From NCBI GenBank assembly GCA_016649475.1, contig JAENXP010000022.1, forward strand, positions 1-11,829: 11,829 nucleotides of DNA. Direction: 5' to 3'. The position numbers and the translations under genes are program-made. Origin of the DNA: Burkholderiales bacterium. GTDB taxonomy: Bacteria > Pseudomonadota > Gammaproteobacteria > Burkholderiales > SG8-39. Shown in pieces: positions 4,650 to 11,829 of the stretch (its first letter is position 1; the number at the start of each line of letters is the position of its first letter). The notes under the pieces are model-generated. The model did not search any database. It saw only the letters and a program-made list of their open reading frames with translations, and had not been told where the DNA came from.

Positions 4650-6760
4650 AATACGCACTCATCCTAAGTGTGCTGTTGGGCGCAGTCCTGTTGTTCCTGC
4701 TGGCGGCCGCGAGCGGCAACACTGCCCTGTTCTCGCGTCACTATGCGCTGCTGCTGGGTCTGAACGCGGCGCTCGCCCTGGCGGTGCTGACGCTGGTCGG
4801 CTATCAGTTGTGGGTACTCACCTCGAAGCTGCGCGCGCGCGTGTTCGGATCGCGTCTGACGCTGCGCTTCCTGCTGATGTTTCTGCCCATGGTGATCGTC
4901 CCCGGTGGCCTTGTCTATGTGGTGTCGCTGCAGTTCATGGCGAAAAGCATCGAATCCTGGTTCGACGTGCGCGTGGACAACGCGCTCGAGGGCGGGCTCA
5001 ATCTCGGTCGCACCGCGCTCGATCTGCTGCTCACCGAACTCAACGGCAAGGCGCGACGCATGGCGCTCGAACTCGCCGACAAGACGCCGGCGCAGCAAGT
5101 GGTGCTGCTAGACCGGCTGCGCGAACAGGCGGGCGTCGACGACGCGCTGATCCTGTCCTCGGGCGGCAATGTGATCGCCAGCGCGAGCAAGGGCCTGGGC
5201 AAACTCTTGCCAGATCTGCCCAATACCATGATCCAGCGCCAGGCGCGGCAGAGCCGCGGTTACGCCGCACTCGAAGGCGCGCCCGACAGGGGTTTGAGTC
5301 TGCGCGTGCTGATGCCGGTGGCGGCGCTCAGTATCGCCGAGGACGAACGGCTGCTGCAACTGCTGCAAAAGGTACCGCCGACGCTGGCGCGGGACGCGGA
5401 GGCCGTGCAGGACGTGTACCGCGACTACAAGGAGTTGTCGCTGTCGCGCCAGGGACTGAAGGAGATCTACATCCTCACCTTGACGCTGACACTGCTGCTG
5501 ACTTTGTTTTCCGCTACCGCCCTGGCATTCCTGCTTTCGGCGCGCCTGTCCGAGCCGCTGGCCCTGCTCGCCGCGGGAACGCAGGCAGTGGCGCGCGGCG
5601 ACTACAGCCGTCGAGCGCAAGTCACCAGCAGCGATGAACTGGGCATCCTCACCCAATCTTTCAACAGCATGACCGAACAACTGGATGATGCGCGCAGCGC
5701 CGCCGAATCGCATCGCGCCGAACTGGAAACGGCCAAGGCCTATCTGGAAAACATCCTCGCCAACCTGTCAGCCGGCGTGCTGGTACTGGACGAGCAGTTG
5801 CGCCTGGGCACGGTGAATCACGGTGCCAGCGCGATCCTGCAGGAAACATTCGACGGCCTGAAGGGCCGGCTCCTGGCCGATTGGCCCAGGTTGCAGCCGC
5901 TGGCGCGAGCCGTCGTCGACGGGTTCAGACAGCACGGCGAGGACACCTGGCAACAGCAGCTGGAGCTGGCCGAGCGCATATTGCTGGTGCGCGGCTCGGT
6001 CTTGCCGCGCACCAGCGGCGGCGGCTATGTGGTCGTATTCGACGATGTCACCAAACTGGTACAGGCGCAGCGCGCCACTGCCTGGGGCGAGGTGGCGCGG
6101 CGTCTGGCGCACGAGATCAAGAACCCGCTGACGCCGATACAGCTGTCGGCGGAGCGTTTGCAGGCAAAACTTGCGAACAAGCTCGCGCCCGAGGACGCGG
6201 CCACGCTCAACCGCGCCACCGCGACCATCATCAACCAGGTCGCGGCAATGAAGGGAATGGTGGACGACTTCGCCGAGTATGCGCGCACGCCCGCGCCCGA
6301 CCTGCAGCCGCTGGACTTGAACGCACTGGTACAAGAGGTGCTGGACCTGTACGAAAACGCCGGCGCGCTGGTGCGGCCCGCGTTGCAGGCCGGACTGCCG
6401 CAGGTGATGGGTGATCCGACGCAACTGCGTCAGGTGATACACAATCTGTTGCAGAATGCACAGGACGCGCTCGCCGGCGGCACCACCAGTGCGTGCATCG
6501 AAGTCGAAACAGAGCGCTCGGGCAACCAGGCCTGCCTCAGAATCAGCGATAACGGCTGCGGCTTCCCCGAAGCCATCATGGCGCGTGTGTTCGAGCCCTA
6601 TGTGACCACCAAGCCCAAAGGCACCGGACTGGGTCTGGCGATCGTGAAAAAGATAATCGACGAACACAATGGCGCGATCAGATTGGAAAATCTCCCCGGT
6701 CAGGGCGCCAGGGTCAGTGTTTCGCTGCCGCTACAAACCGAAATGGCGAGGTCAAGCTAA
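4646..6760 (+). CDS. ntrY: NtrY-type membrane sensor histidine kinase
   Basis: Membrane sensor kinase that phosphorylates the NtrX-type regulator encoded next. The 704-residue product shows hydrophobic helices at about 3-22, 32-56 and 73-97, an extracytoplasmic sensor region at about 100-270, and another helix at about 275-298. A HAMP linker (about 298-350) and a PAS-like domain (about 365-470) follow. The kinase core has the phospho-accepting His489 in RRLAHEIKNPLTPIQLS, an N box around Asn600-Asn604, DNGCGFP (635-641) and GTGLGL (659-664), so it looks catalytically complete. The ATG at 4646 overlaps the upstream stop as ATGA and has GGAGAAGG seven bases before it. An in-frame ATG at 4592 would add 18 residues inside the DUF4390 gene and is less likely. 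It overlaps ntrX as TAATG. The stimulus is unknown; NtrY systems elsewhere are tied to nitrogen or respiratory control. Confidence 0.92.
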   Translation: MKYALILSVLLGAVLLFLLAAASGNTALFSRHYALLLGLNAALALAVLTLVGYQLWVLTSKLRARVFGSRLTLRFLLMFLPMVIVPGGLVYVVSLQFMAKSIESWFDVRVDNALEGGLNLGRTALDLLLTELNGKARRMALELADKTPAQQVVLLDRLREQAGVDDALILSSGGNVIASASKGLGKLLPDLPNTMIQRQARQSRGYAALEGAPDRGLSLRVLMPVAALSIAEDERLLQLLQKVPPTLARDAEAVQDVYRDYKELSLSRQGLKEIYILTLTLTLLLTLFSATALAFLLSARLSEPLALLAAGTQAVARGDYSRRAQVTSSDELGILTQSFNSMTEQLDDARSAAESHRAELETAKAYLENILANLSAGVLVLDEQLRLGTVNHGASAILQETFDGLKGRLLADWPRLQPLARAVVDGFRQHGEDTWQQQLELAERILLVRGSVLPRTSGGGYVVVFDDVTKLVQAQRATAWGEVARRLAHEIKNPLTPIQLSAERLQAKLANKLAPEDAATLNRATATIINQVAAMKGMVDDFAEYARTPAPDLQPLDLNALVQEVLDLYENAGALVRPALQAGLPQVMGDPTQLRQVIHNLLQNAQDALAGGTTSACIEVETERSGNQACLRISDNGCGFPEAIMARVFEPYVTTKPKGTGLGLAIVKKIIDEHNGAIRLENLPGQGARVSVSLPLQTEMARSS

Positions 6761-8007
6761 TGTCCCAGATACTGGTCGTCGATGATGAAGTCGGCATCCG
6801 CGAGCTTCTGTCGGAGATACTCGCCGATGAAGGCCATGCCGTGCAGCTGGCCGAAAATGCGGCGAGCGCGCGAACACTGCGCGGCGCCGAGCGCCCCGAT
6901 CTGGTGCTCCTCGACATATGGATGCCAGATACCGACGGCATCACCCTGCTGAAGGAGTGGGCGGCGAACGGCCAACTTACTATGCCGGTGGTAATGATGT
7001 CCGGGCATGGCACCATCGAAACCGCGGTGGAAGCCACCCGCATCGGCGCCATCGATTTTCTGGAAAAGCCAATCGCCCTGCAAAAGCTGCTGGCCACGGT
7101 GAAACGGGCGCTGCGAAGCGAAGGCAGACAGACGCAGGCCGGGCTAACGCTGCTAAGCCTGGGTCGCTCCGCAGTCATAACCGATCTGCGCAAGCGCCTG
7201 GCGCAAATCGCCACACTGTCGGTGCCGGTGCTGTTGCGCGGCGAACCAGGCGTCATGCCGGAACTGTTTGCGCGCTACCTGCACCAGCCCAATACGCCCT
7301 GGATCGTTGCCGGCGCGGCACTGGCCGATGCGCCGCAGGATCTGCTGGCGCAGGCAGCGGGTGGTCTGATTTTCGTCGAAGAACTGGCAACGCTCTCGCG
7401 CGCGCAACAAAAGAATCTGGCATTCGTCCTGAGCAAACAGGAGAAAACCAAGACGCGGGTCGTCTCCTTCACTGCCGAGGCGCCGACGCGTCTCGCCGCC
7501 GAGCTCGGTTTCGACACGGCCCTGCTTGCGCGCCTGTCGGAACTCTCGCTGGTGCTTCCGGCGCTGCGCGAGCACGCCGAGGATATTCCCGATATAGCCG
7601 GCATTCTGCTGGCGCAGTTGGTGGAGGCCAGAATATGTCCTCCGCGGCATCTTTCCACCGCCGCGCTCAACGCCCTGCGCCAGTTTCATTGGCCGCGCAA
7701 TCTGCAAGACCTGCAAAGCGCCGTGAAAAACCTGGCGCTCACTGCACTGGAGGAAGAAATCGGCGCCGTTGATGTGGAACGCGTGTGCGCGCAGTTTCAC
7801 CCCTCCGCCGACCACCAGGTGTCACTGCCGGTCGAATCGCCGCTGCGCGAGGCGCGGGACATGTTCGAGCGCGCTTACTTCGAACATTTGCTGGCGCGCG
7901 AAGCCGGCTCGATCGCGCGCGTAGCCGAGAAAAGCGGCCTCGAGCGCACCCATCTGTACCGCAAACTCAGGGCGCTGGGTATAACGGCGGGTAGAAAGGA
8001 GGAATAG
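6760..8007 (+). CDS. ntrX: NtrX-type response regulator with degenerate AAA+ domain
   Basis: A 415-residue regulator. The receiver domain (1-120) is complete: Asp8/Asp9, phospho-accepting Asp52, Ser81 and Lys103. The C-terminal Fis-type helix-turn-helix (about 362-408) is also present. The middle domain aligns to the sigma-54 activator AAA+ fold but is shortened and broken. Walker A reads GEPGVMPE (161-168) with proline for the essential lysine. Walker B reads LIFVEE (203-208). The GAFTGA loop is missing, and the sensor II arginine in WPRNLQDL (311-318) is glutamine. It should bind DNA under NtrY control, but probably cannot hydrolyse ATP or open sigma-54 complexes. I recall similar NtrX proteins in Neisseria. 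The start overlaps the ntrY stop and has GAGG at 6748-6751. Confidence 0.9.
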   Translation: MSQILVVDDEVGIRELLSEILADEGHAVQLAENAASARTLRGAERPDLVLLDIWMPDTDGITLLKEWAANGQLTMPVVMMSGHGTIETAVEATRIGAIDFLEKPIALQKLLATVKRALRSEGRQTQAGLTLLSLGRSAVITDLRKRLAQIATLSVPVLLRGEPGVMPELFARYLHQPNTPWIVAGAALADAPQDLLAQAAGGLIFVEELATLSRAQQKNLAFVLSKQEKTKTRVVSFTAEAPTRLAAELGFDTALLARLSELSLVLPALREHAEDIPDIAGILLAQLVEARICPPRHLSTAALNALRQFHWPRNLQDLQSAVKNLALTALEEEIGAVDVERVCAQFHPSADHQVSLPVESPLREARDMFERAYFEHLLAREAGSIARVAEKSGLERTHLYRKLRALGITAGRKEE

Positions 8008-8010
8008 CAG

Positions 8011-8084
8011 GCCATTTCAGGATTGCCGAAACGGCCCCTGACTCAGGGGTGCACGGGGGGATATCCCTACTTTTCGCCATTTGC
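8011..8084 (+). repeat. Structured intergenic repeat, copy 3
   Basis: Third copy, starting four bases after the ntrX stop. Hairpin A is GCCG-AAA-CGGC (8025-8035). Hairpin B is CCCCTG-ACT-CAGGGG (8035-8049), a perfect palindrome around one base. Next comes the self-complementary GGGATATCCC (8058-8067) and a tail TTTTCGCCATTTGCACC matching the ends of the other copies. Relative to copy 1 the stem bases of A and B differ, but pairing is kept. This is the best-preserved short form of the element. It may end the ntrX transcript, though no T tract follows. Confidence 0.68.
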
Positions 8085-8091
8085 ACCAGGC

Positions 8092-8125
8092 TTCGACTCT
8101 GCAGCGCGGGAAAAGAGCATAAAAT
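8092..8125 (+). promoter_or_regulatory. Possible trkA promoter
   Basis: TAAAAT at 8120-8125 matches the -10 consensus at five of six positions and lies 65 bases before the trkA start. It falls inside the small hairpin GCAT-AAA-ATGC (8117-8127). TTCGAC at 8092-8097 looks like a -35 box, but the 22-base spacing is too long for an ordinary sigma-70 promoter. trkA probably has its own promoter in this 182-base gap, because a repeat copy separates it from ntrX. The exact site is uncertain. Confidence 0.25.
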
Positions 8126-8189
8126 GCGACCCATCCGCCTTTAATCTTCCGACTTGGCGCAGCCGGGTTCGTATCTCAGAGGAACAGCG

Positions 8190-9563
8190 TTGAAAATCAT
8201 CATCCTCGGCGCAGGGCAGGTCGGGACCAGCGTAGCCGAAAGCCTTGTTTCTGAAGCCAACGACATCACCGTCGTGGACATCGATGGCGCGCGCCTGCGC
8301 CTGTTGCAGGACCGCCTGGATTTGCGCACCGTCGCCGGCAGCGCAGCTCATCCTTCGGTCCTGAAAAGCGCCGGCATCGAAGATGCCGATATGCTGATCG
8401 CGGTAACGCAGAGCGACGAAACCAACCTGGTCGCCTGCAAGATTGCGGCGCACCTGTACAACGTTCCCACCCGCATCGCGCGTATCCGCGCACCGCAATA
8501 TCTCGCCAACGAGCATTTGTTCGAACCGGAATGCTTTGCGGTGGACTACGCCATCTGTCCGGAGCAGCTGATCACCGAGTATCTGGTCAAGCTGGTGCAG
8601 TTTCCCGAGGCGCTGCAGGTGCTGGAATTCGCCGACGGCCGCGTGAGTCTGGTGGCGGTGCGTGCCTTCGAGGGCGGACCGCTGGTAGGTCACCAATTGC
8701 AGGACATCCGCAAGCACATACCCAACGTGGACGTGCGCGTCGCCGCCATTTTCCGCGGCGACCGCCCGATCGTGCCAGAAGGAACGACTGTGGTCGAAGC
8801 CGAAGATGAAGTATTCTGCCTCGCCGCCAGCCAGAATATTCGCAGGGTAATGCAGGAGATGCGCCGCCAGGACAAGCCGGTGCGCAGGGTGATGATCGCC
8901 GGCGGGGGCAACATCGGCCTTAGGCTGGCGCGCGCGCTCGAGAACGACTATACGGTCAAAATCGTCGAGCGCGACAAGCGCCGTTGCGAAGAACTGTCCA
9001 CGCGGCTCGATAAAGCGCTGCTGCTGCAAGGCGACGTCACCGACGAGTCGCTGCTCGAAGCGGAGAACGTCGAGGAGATGGATCTGTTCGTCGCCGTGAC
9101 CAATAACGACGAGAACAACATCATGAGCTGCCTGCTGGCCAAGCGCATGGGCGCGCGCCGCGTTGTAGCGCTGATCAACCGGCGCTCATACGTGGACCTG
9201 CTGCAGTCGGGACAGATCGACATCGCCATCTCCCCGGCACAGGCAACCATAGGCTCGCTGCTGGCGCACGTGCGCCGCGGCGACATCACCGAAGTGCACT
9301 CGCTGCGCCGCGGCGCAGCCGAAGCGCTCGAAGCCGTGGTGCACGGCGATGCGGCATCCTGCCGCGTGGTGGGACGACAGATCGAACAGATCGAATTGCC
9401 CAAGGGCACGACCATCGCCGCCGTCGTACGCGGCGAGCAGGTGCTTATGGCACACCACGACACCGTGATCCAGAGCGGCGACCATGCCATAGTCTTCGTC
9501 ACCAACAAGAAAATGGTACCCAAGGTGGAAAAGCTGTTTCAGGTCAGCGCGGGTTTTCTCTGA
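8190..9563 (+). CDS. trkA: Trk potassium uptake regulatory subunit TrkA
   Basis: Cytoplasmic peripheral protein that gates the TrkH potassium channel on binding NAD(H) and nucleotides. The 457 residues have the classic two-lobed layout. A first RCK N-domain has GAGQVG (7-12) and Asp30. An RCK C-domain follows at about 140-225. A second N-domain has GGGNIG (238-243) and Glu260, and a second C-domain lies at about 370-452. I chose the TTG at 8190 because it gives the standard MKIIILGAGQVG start, has AGAGGA six bases upstream and gives the same length as E. coli TrkA. A longer in-frame form from the TTG at 8154 lacks a ribosome-binding site. trkH follows after 20 bases. A decayed copy of this gene lies at 11058-11315. 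Confidence 0.95.
   Translation: MKIIILGAGQVGTSVAESLVSEANDITVVDIDGARLRLLQDRLDLRTVAGSAAHPSVLKSAGIEDADMLIAVTQSDETNLVACKIAAHLYNVPTRIARIRAPQYLANEHLFEPECFAVDYAICPEQLITEYLVKLVQFPEALQVLEFADGRVSLVAVRAFEGGPLVGHQLQDIRKHIPNVDVRVAAIFRGDRPIVPEGTTVVEAEDEVFCLAASQNIRRVMQEMRRQDKPVRRVMIAGGGNIGLRLARALENDYTVKIVERDKRRCEELSTRLDKALLLQGDVTDESLLEAENVEEMDLFVAVTNNDENNIMSCLLAKRMGARRVVALINRRSYVDLLQSGQIDIAISPAQATIGSLLAHVRRGDITEVHSLRRGAAEALEAVVHGDAASCRVVGRQIEQIELPKGTTIAAVVRGEQVLMAHHDTVIQSGDHAIVFVTNKKMVPKVEKLFQVSAGFL
8740..8829 (+). repeat. Short direct repeats (TCGCCGCCA) in trkA
   Basis: The nine bases TCGCCGCCA occur at 8740-8748 and at 8821-8829, 81 bases (27 codons) apart and in the same frame. The decayed trkA copy downstream is missing exactly the segment between them and keeps a single junction. 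Slipped-strand deletion between such repeats would give that result without breaking the frame. Confidence 0.7.
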
Positions 9564-9583
9564 GATAACGGAACTCGCCTCTC

Positions 9584-11041
9584 ATGGTTCGAGTATCTGC
9601 CGTACTCCACGTGCTGAGCGTGGTCATCATGATGTTTGCGCTTTGCCTGTTGTTTCCCCTCGTCTGGTCCTTTCTCCTGGGCGATGCCGCGCAGACCGCC
9701 TACGACGAAGCCATATTGCTGACCGCGTCCTCAGGGGTGCTGCTGTGGGCGGCGACGCGCAAGCATCGGCAGGAAATGCAGCCGCGCGACGGTTTTCTCC
9801 TGGTAGCACTGGTCTACACCATGCTGCCGGCCTTCGCCACTCTGCCGCTGCTGTTCTATCTGCCGGAACTGTCCTTCACCGACGCCTACTTCGAGGCCGT
9901 TTCCGGGCTCACTGCCTCCGGCGGGACAGTGCTCTCCGGCCTGGACGCGCTGCCGCCCTCGATCAATATCTGGCGTACCTTTCTGATCTGGCTCGGCGGC
10001 ATGGGCGTGATCGTGCTGGCCGTGGCCATCCTGCCGCTGTTGGGTGTAGGCGGCAGCCAGATCTACAAGGCCGAGACCCCCGGCCCGATGAAAGACACCA
10101 AGCTGACCCCGCGCATCGCGGAGACCGCCAAGGGCCTGTGGCTGGTGTATTTCATGATCACCATTGCCTGCTTGCTCGCCTACCGCATCGCCGGCATGAC
10201 TTGGCTCGACGCCATGATGCATGCGTTCACCACCATGGGTCTGGGCGGGTTCTCCTCGCACGACGCGAGCTACGCCTATTGGAACTCGCCTGCGATCGAA
10301 GCAGTGGCCATCTATTTCATGCTGCTGGCCGGCATAAACTTCGGCACTCATTTCCTCGCTTGGCGGCGATGGAGTTTCGGCCCGTACGCGCGCGACCCCG
10401 AGGCCGGTTTATATCTGCTGGTGGTGCTCGGCAGCGTCCTCGGCGTCGCGACATTCCTGCTCGCCAATCAGACTTATCCCGACTTCTGGACCGCGCTGCG
10501 CTTTTCCGCTTTCAACGTAATCTCCATCGCCACCACCACGGGTTACTCCAACGCCGATTTCAACCTGTGGCCGATTTTCGCGCCGGTGTGGATGTTGTTT
10601 CTGTGCAGCTTCGCCACCTGCTCGGGCTCGACCGGGGGCGGCATCAAGATGATCCGCGCCAGGCTGATGGCGCGCCAGGCGGTGCGCGAAATGACGCGCA
10701 TCATCCATCCGCGCGCAGTGATCCCGGTGAAGCTCGCGGGTGCGACGGTGGAGAACAACATCATTTTCGCCATACTCGCGTTCATCCTGGTATATAACGG
10801 CGCAATCATCGCCATGACCATGCTGCTCGCCGCCTCCGGCCTGGATATCATCACTGCGTTCTCTGCGGTCATCGCCAGCATCAACAACACCGGCCCGGGT
10901 TTGAACAAGGTGGGACCGGCAACGACTTTTGCATCTCTGAACGACTTCCAAACCTGGATCTGCACCGTCGCCATGCTGCTCGGACGGCTGGAATTGTTCA
11001 GCCTGCTGGTGGTGTTCACGCCCGGATTCTGGCGCAGATAG
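9584..11041 (+). CDS. trkH: Trk potassium channel subunit TrkH, first copy
   Basis: Inner-membrane potassium-translocating subunit that works with TrkA. The 485 residues are close to E. coli TrkH (483) and are strongly hydrophobic, with the four-fold membrane-pore-membrane layout. The pore loops are SGLTASGGT (107-115), AFTTMGLGG (214-222), ATTTGYS (316-322) and NNTGPG (434-439). Filter glycines 113, 219, 320 and 437 are all present. Loop 1 is unusual: most relatives, and the second copy here, read TTTG where this reads TASG. The ATG at 9584 is 20 bases after trkA, so the two are co-transcribed. The first 165 residues are about 84 percent identical to the second copy at 11335, showing a tandem duplication. 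Confidence 0.95.
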   Translation: MVRVSAVLHVLSVVIMMFALCLLFPLVWSFLLGDAAQTAYDEAILLTASSGVLLWAATRKHRQEMQPRDGFLLVALVYTMLPAFATLPLLFYLPELSFTDAYFEAVSGLTASGGTVLSGLDALPPSINIWRTFLIWLGGMGVIVLAVAILPLLGVGGSQIYKAETPGPMKDTKLTPRIAETAKGLWLVYFMITIACLLAYRIAGMTWLDAMMHAFTTMGLGGFSSHDASYAYWNSPAIEAVAIYFMLLAGINFGTHFLAWRRWSFGPYARDPEAGLYLLVVLGSVLGVATFLLANQTYPDFWTALRFSAFNVISIATTTGYSNADFNLWPIFAPVWMLFLCSFATCSGSTGGGIKMIRARLMARQAVREMTRIIHPRAVIPVKLAGATVENNIIFAILAFILVYNGAIIAMTMLLAASGLDIITAFSAVIASINNTGPGLNKVGPATTFASLNDFQTWICTVAMLLGRLELFSLLVVFTPGFWRR

Positions 11042-11057
11042 GCCAGGGGCGACATGA

Positions 11058-11315
11058 GCCACGCAGTCCTTCGCGAAGGCGCGTTTCGCCCCCACCACTT
11101 CTCGCGTGAAAAGTCGCGCTCGCGTGGGCCTGGCGGCAGCGCGCGTCTTCCAGGGCGGATTTCTGACAAAGCGCCAGCTGCATGATATCTGCAAGAACTT
11201 GGCCAACGCAGACGTGCGCGCCGCAGCAAGTGAATACCCGCAGGTGATTGAGGAAATGTGCCGCATGAACTCGCCCGTGCACCACACCACGACCACCCGC
11301 ACGGGCTTTCTCTGA
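11058..11315 (+). pseudogene. Decayed second trkA, internally deleted in frame
   Basis: Remnant of a duplicated trkA lying between the two trkH copies. The frame is open from just after a TGA at 11055 to a TGA at 11313-11315. From 11121 the translation RVGLAAARVFQGG matches TrkA RVSLVAVRAFEGG (from residue 151). RQLHDICKNLANADVR then matches HQLQDIRKHIPNVDVR. It next jumps to VIEEMCRMNSPV, matching VMQEMRRQDKPV (220-231), and finally to GFL-stop, the TrkA C-terminus. Both NAD-binding domains are gone, so it cannot work as TrkA. A GTG at 11106 could start a 69-residue product, but no ribosome-binding site is seen. Bases 11042 to about 11120 match TrkA only weakly. It could instead be a retained small RCK fragment, because the frame has stayed open. 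Confidence 0.8.
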
Positions 11316-11334
11316 GTTAAGACGAACGCCTCCC

Positions 11335-11829
11335 ATGGTTCGAATTCCTGCTGTTCTCCACGTGCTGAGCGTGGTCATCATGATTTTCGCGTTGTGCGTG
11401 TTTTTCCCCCTCGCCTGGTCCTTTATTCTCCACGATGCCGCCGAAACAGCCTACGACGAAGCCGTTTTGGTAACCGCGTTTGCCGGCGTAGTGCTGTGGG
11501 CGCTCACGCGCAAGCACCGGCGTGAGCTGCAGCCGCGCGACGGTTTTCTCCTGGTGGCGCTGGTGTGGACCGTGCTGCCCGCCTTCGCCACCCTGCCGTT
11601 GCTGCTCTATCTGCCGGAACTGTCCTTCACCGACGCCTACTTCGAGACCGTTTCCGGGCTTACTACTACCGGGTCGACGGTGCTCTCCGACCTGGACGCA
11701 CTGCCGCCCTCGATCAATATCTGGCGCACCTTTTTGATCTGGGTCGGCGGCATGGGTGTGATCGTGCTGGCCGTGGCCATCCTGCCGCTGCTGGGTGTAG
11801 GCGGCAGCCAGATCTACAAGGCCGAGACC
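11335..11829 (+). CDS. trkH: TrkH potassium channel subunit, second copy (cut by window end)
   Basis: The first 165 codons of a second TrkH; the frame is open to the last base of the window. It begins MVRIPAVLHVLSVVIM and differs from the first copy at about 26 of 165 positions. Pore loop 1 reads SGLTTTGST, the usual family form, where the first copy has SGLTASGGT. Divergence is uneven: after residue 119 only one residue differs (Leu137 to Val), and about six of 140 bases differ. That suggests gene conversion or strong constraint there. The ATG is 19 bases after the TGA of the trkA remnant, mirroring the 20-base gap before the first trkH, so the duplicated unit included the 3' end of trkA. 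Whether it is full length cannot be seen. Confidence 0.93.
   Translation, partial: MVRIPAVLHVLSVVIMIFALCVFFPLAWSFILHDAAETAYDEAVLVTAFAGVVLWALTRKHRRELQPRDGFLLVALVWTVLPAFATLPLLLYLPELSFTDAYFETVSGLTTTGSTVLSDLDALPPSINIWRTFLIWVGGMGVIVLAVAILPLLGVGGSQIYKAET

Follow-up and report, generated by a model that had tools for sequence, protein, structure and literature searches.

One TrkA and two unlike TrkH channels: a decayed second trkA within a probable tandem duplication in a Burkholderiales bacterium

How does a locus come to hold two genes for the potassium channel TrkH beside a single gene for its regulator TrkA, and why would a bacterium keep both? This question is raised by the right part of a stretch of 11,829 nucleotides (nt) from a Burkholderiales bacterium (GCA_016649475.1), here called the window, which is the entire contig C71 (JAENXP010000022.1) of a draft genome of 864 contigs with 83% completeness and 6.4% contamination. 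The gene order is trkA, trkH1 (H1), a spacer of 293 bases with a trkA remnant, and trkH2 (H2), which runs to the contig end. A preliminary description had given this order from the sequence, and it was confirmed, with the remnant matched by blastn and by trkA profiles in trkA order. It is quite probable that a trkA-trkH unit was duplicated in tandem and in place, that the second trkA (trkA2) decayed and that both channels were kept, with one TrkA opening two unequal channels. The pseudogene by itself is ordinary; the recurrent split of the filter in tandem trkH pairs is the part that is worth a second look.

The remnant was recognized by comparing positions 11042-11350 with 8001-9600 by blastn. 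The matches follow the order of trkA: 107 base pairs (bp) at 72% identity (E 8e-13; trkA codons about 151 to 186), 64 bp at 72% (E 0.017), and 47 bp at 81% with 3 gaps (E 8e-7), the last running through the GFL-stop ending and the spacer into trkH, as had been noticed earlier. A nucleotide profile of 15 trkA genes, the window's own among them, matches two separate blocks of the remnant (Table 1), and a trkA protein profile matches it in the same frame (E 7.7e-9), so the alignment is significant at both base and protein level. In a TrkA search of the whole assembly, a single intact trkA was found, in agreement with the preliminary description, and the weakest match was the remnant itself (11115-11228, E 5e-4, 53% identity, residues 149-186). 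Net 83 bases are gone between the two blocks and one further base inside block 2, which together keep the frame; a second, larger loss after block 2 (profile position 706) leads to the C-terminal end of trkA. These deletions bear out the idea that the second trkA shrank. The 30 mismatches in the 107-base block are spread evenly over codon positions 1, 2 and 3 (10/9/11), whereas the intact trkA genes of the window and of MAG26, another genome of the genus, differ in that stretch by 3/0/14. This even spread indicates decay without selection. With collinear trkA homology, essential parts lost and no codon-position bias over 107 bases, the remnant is a neutrally decaying trkA pseudogene.

The locus was compared in a set of 14 genomes of the same genus, including the window's own. 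Tandem trkH genes are present in two of them, the own genome and MAG26 (G006, locus L019, JACZJT010000010.1; 99% complete), which has one trkA and two trkH. Ten carry a single trkH at the locus within the stretches examined, and two could not be scored for the tandem, as the contig ends inside trkH in G013 and, in G003, just after trkA on the contig with that genome's more window-like trkA. The MAG26 spacer has 198 bases, including 3 of the last trkH1 codon and 3 of the stop, and it matches trkA profile positions 645-715 (E 7e-7). By eye, it joins a stretch ending near profile position 559 to block 2, as in the window; automatic alignment places some of the gaps differently. The MAG26 remnant is more eroded, with most of block 1 lost and the GFL ending out of frame. 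Since the same junction occurs in both remnants, the trimming of trkA2 most likely predates the split of the two lineages and took place in their common ancestor. A stage with two full trkA genes in tandem, for which the preliminary description had suggested looking in relatives, was not found among the 14 genomes. Two full-length trkA genes occur among these genomes only in G003, on separate contigs (C204 and C30, 93% and 61% identity to the window trkA), and the diverged one (61%) has its own trkH, forming a second, diverged trkA-trkH unit elsewhere in that genome.

It had also been claimed that the duplicated unit spanned both genes. The remnant proves this only for the part that begins near trkA codon 149 and runs through the end of trkH. 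The first 77 or so bases of the spacer (11042-11118) show no significant likeness to trkA, with 59 of 300 shuffles scoring as high, and a candidate reading of them as TrkA residues of about 49-60 (SHAVLREGAF) was dropped because shuffles gave it no support. The same bases reach a local score of 27 against the start of the MAG26 spacer, where the maximum of 1000 shuffles is 26. A breakpoint inside trkA near codon 149, so that a full second trkA never existed and the remainder decayed in the same way, is rather unlikely, although no supported trkA sequence precedes profile position 449 in the spacer of the window or of MAG26. Two more internal losses (profile positions 559-645 and after 706) show piecemeal deletion, by which the front could have been lost equally easily, and MAG26 has lost most of block 1 too.

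Both trkH genes are intact. Over 119 identical bases, the end of the window overlaps contig C296, on which trkH2 continues to a full length of 485 amino acids (aa), confirming that the second trkH stayed open, so two intact trkH genes stand beside one intact trkA in this genome. The two proteins end alike (GFWRR), and the trkH2 parts match PF02386 (TrkH) at E 6e-23 in the window and 2e-52 on C296. In an alignment that includes the solved TrkH, the filter glycine is present in all four pore loops of both copies (G113, GLGGF, TTTGY and NNTGPG). The ratio of nonsynonymous to synonymous substitutions (dN/dS) between the window and MAG26 is 0.10 for H1 and 0.09 for H2, indicating that both genes are maintained under purifying selection. 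In addition, site patterns and trees show that gene conversion has partly homogenized the copies in the window's lineage. In the tree of nt 1-390, H1 of both the window and MAG26 clusters with the one trkH of G001 (support 100/98), and holding the window's H1 and H2 together is rejected by the approximately unbiased (AU) test (p 4e-4); a grouping of G005 with H2 is not recovered in this tree, yet it is not rejected (AU p 0.42). In the tree of nt 391-1455, the window's own H1 and H2 are sister to each other (99/99). The site patterns (ortholog:paralog:cross) change accordingly along the gene, with 25:4:4 (1-390), 2:10:2 (391-776), 11:8:5 (777-1260), 0:7:0 (1261-1358) and 3:0:1 (1359-1455), and H1 and H2 have an identical run of 122 bases in common.

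The grouping of H1 with G001 over nt 1-390 means that the duplication predates the tandem genomes, unless H1 was transferred within the genus. In the tree of the flanking genes rsmB-ntrY-ntrX, the arrangement is ((window, G005), (MAG26, G013)) with G001 outside. As the window is sister to G005 there, the single trkH of G005 implies a loss, and under a duplication G001 would have kept only the H1-type gene. The rival to this is that trkH1, or a trkA-trkH1 unit, was transferred from another member of the genus to a place beside the resident trkH, the scrap being what is left of the resident trkA. The grouping of H1 over nt 1-390 with a gene of G001, a genome that the flanking genes place outside, would agree with such a transfer, which is nevertheless unlikely: the window trkA is sister to the trkA of G005 (100/98), as are the flanks (100/100), so trkA is not foreign, and the identity between the window and G001 is 88.5% in H1, close to the 86.2% of the flanking genes, as under vertical descent. 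An independent origin of trkH2, which would have spoken against the preliminary description, is not indicated, since the four tandem copies of the window and MAG26 form one clade within the genus on protein trees (support 96); the exception is H1 over nt 1-390. The filter split of these two genomes thus appears to have arisen here among near kin. By eye, the bases just 3' of trkH2 resemble those 3' of the single trkH in G005, G010, G012 and G004, so the tandem is apparently at the ancestral site.

Some points weigh against an in-place duplication with decay of trkA2. The tandem is present in only 2 of the 14 genomes (2 not scorable), which are not sisters on the flanking genes, so losses or transfer are needed. 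The first 77 spacer bases are not accounted for by it, and another trkA could be missing from the 83% complete draft. Retention of the remnant as a small regulatory protein is very improbable; the frame is open in the TrkA frame and the deletions between blocks 1 and 2 sum to whole codons, but the codon-position mismatches are even, there is no Pfam match, and MAG26 is without most of block 1 and has its GFL ending out of frame. That two strain variants of one trkH were joined into a false tandem is hardly credible, even for a contaminated draft of many contigs with a 122-base identical run and a contig break inside trkH2, because the same arrangement sits in a 136-kilobase contig of MAG26, a decayed trkA between the copies is unexpected from strain variants, and the 119-base overlap is present only once in the window. 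The duplication in place is retained as the preferred reading; the preliminary observation was right and its interpretation mostly right, being partly supported.

The two channels differ in the first pore loop. The trkH1 filter is T110-A-S-G113 in the window, in MAG26 and in the single G001 gene, and that of trkH2 is T-T-T-G, as in the solved Vibrio TrkH (T-T-T-G113) whose alignment was used for residue mapping. The full motifs of H1 and H2 are TASGGT and TTTGST in the window and TASGGT and TTTGAT in MAG26. The motif could be read in 108 of 120 homologs (the best of 8000 scored), giving TTTGAT in 83, TASGGT in 15, TTSGAT in 7 and 3 others once each. In the K+ channel KcsA, the hydroxyl of Thr75 helps in K+ binding. 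The pore-loop-1 glycine of TrkH is equated in PMC9898762 with the first glycine of the GYG motif of K+ channels, so TrkH residue 111 corresponds to KcsA Thr75, described as part of the S4 ion site in PMC8943062. Without Thr111, whose counterpart in KcsA lies at the inner ion site, trkH1 is probably unlike trkH2 in its affinity for K+ or in its permeation by, or sensitivity to, Na+. Three metagenome proteins (P0012, P0014 and P0017) combine a front of H1 type (TASGG) with tails of a different type (CGFCTCSG), which suggests that modules were exchanged close to the conversion boundary or that the assembly is chimeric.

The same filter difference has been observed in other tandem pairs. In a first survey set, made up of the 80 loci most like H1 among 577, two trkH genes stand beside one trkA in 13. 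Together with G082, G083 and the window, this gives 16 tandem pairs, all of which have one T-A-x-G and one T-T-x-G copy; the pattern was first noticed in this set, where 10 of 72 single-copy rows are T-A. The T-A copy is nearer to trkA in 12 of the 16 pairs and farther in L030, L047, L088 and L096. In L047, a trkA-trkH pair is followed directly downstream by a second, T-A-type trkH in opposite orientation. Many T-A copies of the first set have T-S-L-G and not T-T-T-G in pore loop 3, so the older T-A group may have a second filter loop that is different.

A later sample was taken after the idea had been formed and comprised 250 genomes from the order, 108 of which, the own included, had a match at E 1e-100. 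Seven of its 8 new tandem pairs are mixed, the other (L210, in G205) having two T-T copies. The proteins of these pairs are at most 75% identical to any row outside the eight pairs and so do not duplicate the first set. Among the single-copy rows, 13 of 45 are T-A, a rough background, since these rows include 20 picked by hand and 2 identical to first-set rows; random pairing at this rate would give about 41% mixed pairs, kinship ignored. Non-tandem pairs are mixed in 2 of 6 cases, namely in none of four (G213, G288, G129 and G090) and in both G103 and G105, whose selection was based on one copy being T-A. Over both sets, 23 of 24 tandem pairs are mixed. A quick protein tree was built with the motif columns removed; 8 rows that duplicated loci already present were dropped, 5 further rows are identical to others, and several long branches are flagged. 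On this tree, the label needs 16 changes, at least 13 of them forced by well-supported branches. It divides the T-A copies from the 23 mixed pairs among 8 groups made up only of T-A, with 11 pairs in one group and one group at a support of only 39. Judged from this tree, the mixed pairs represent far fewer than 23 independent events, yet more than one origin is needed. The mixed filters suggest that channels paired behind a single TrkA have repeatedly divided their labour. It is possible, though still somewhat doubtful, that the filters of tandem TrkH copies have repeatedly been split, one losing the threonine (T-A-x-G) and the other keeping T-T-x-G, which would mark a module for K+ uptake that recurs, with two channels of complementary affinity or selectivity under one gating ring. 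If so, the window would be a recent example that arose in place and in which a scrap of the second regulator can still be seen. Second TrkH-like matches in G043, G044 and G060 are distant or partial, and one trkH (G303:C256:1344-2792) has one TAG stop inside an otherwise full-length match.

The history proposed for the window would begin with the tandem duplication, at the ancestral site in an ancestor of the lineage, of a trkA-trkH unit that reached at least from near trkA codon 149 through trkH. The second trkA decayed by deletions in the absence of selection, as its remnant documents, and both trkH genes were kept by the purifying selection, and partly homogenized by the conversion, described above. 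TrkH is a dimer on a TrkA tetramer according to PMC6987127, so mixed TrkH1-TrkH2 dimers would be possible. Most likely, the sole remaining TrkA gating ring opens both channels. The loss of the conserved threonine 111 from trkH1 would have made the channels unequal, possibly tuning affinity or Na+ handling. The scrap would illustrate how a two-gene unit can become a module of one regulator and two channels. The tandem pairs form a natural series, defined by sequence, in which one can ask what makes bacteria retain two TrkH channels with a single TrkA, and whether a functional division is set by the threonine of pore loop 1, at the KcsA Thr75 position.

Related systems are known. In Halomonas elongata, TrkH and TrkI are two TrkH-type channels sharing one TrkA; a tandem pair with a trkA scrap is not known to have been described. 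In Escherichia coli K-12, TrkA serves both TrkG and TrkH, as reported in PMC9898762, and by analogy one TrkA would serve both channels of the window. According to the same source, TrkG is Na+-dependent, takes up Na+ and differs in function from TrkH, and its gene is foreign, lying in the Rac prophage far from trkH, whereas the window copies are in tandem. The T-A/T-T split expected for the E. coli pair was ruled out, as TrkG and TrkH both have T-T-T-G, unlike the window pair with its unlike filters. Streptococcus sanguinis has two Trk systems per cell, trkA1-trkH1 and trkA2-trkH2, reported as redundant for growth (PMC12691585); there each trkH has its own trkA, whereas the second trkA of the window has decayed. 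Other trkA-trkH-trkH loci of Burkholderiales and Rhodocyclales (L030, L045, L074, L127 and others) have one trkA and two trkH, mostly T-A-x-G with T-T-x-G, but their copies are 54-78% identical at the protein level, compared with 91% in the window and 86% in MAG26. Among the open-access papers listed in full-text searches, none, judged by title and the start of the abstract, treats tandem trkH pairs or the T-A/T-T split, which is weak evidence of absence as subscription journals are mostly outside this literature.

Table 1. Features of the trkA-trkH region in the window.
Position	Strand	Feature	Match
8190..9563	+	trkA, intact, 457 aa, two TrkA_N and two TrkA_C domains; presumed gating ring for both channels	
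9584..11041	+	trkH1, intact, 485 aa; pore-loop-1 motif T-A-S-G-G-T at residues 110-115	Pfam TrkH, E 8e-68
11042..11118	+	Inter-trkH spacer, first part, partly common to MAG26	No significant likeness to trkA
11119..11229	+	trkA remnant block 1, trkA nt 449-559	nhmmer E 1.5e-15; blastn E 8e-13
11232..11292	+	trkA remnant block 2, trkA nt 645-706, after net 83-base deletion	nhmmer E 4.1e-6
11299..11334	+	trkA remnant tail (GFL-stop) and trkA-trkH spacer, up to trkH2 start	blastn 47 bp, 81%, E 8e-7
11106..11315	+	69-codon open frame in TrkA frame over the remnant; no sign of selection	No Pfam match
11335..11829	+	trkH2, first 165 codons; pore-loop-1 motif T-T-T-G-S-T; rest on contig C296, giving 485 aa	

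No promoter-like, terminator-like or RNA-like elements were found within 10950-11400, and Rfam gave zero matches in the window. Past trkH2, contig C296 carries on the opposite strand a small gene, a RidA-family gene (PF01042) and a gene for a methionine-synthase activation domain (PF02965); on reading, the small gene has a lipoprotein-like start. Upstream of trkA, positions 6760-8007 of the window encode an NtrX-like response regulator whose AAA+ domain has GEPGVMPE where the Walker A motif GExGxGKE is expected and fits PF14532 better than PF00158, so it is possibly a degenerate ATPase.

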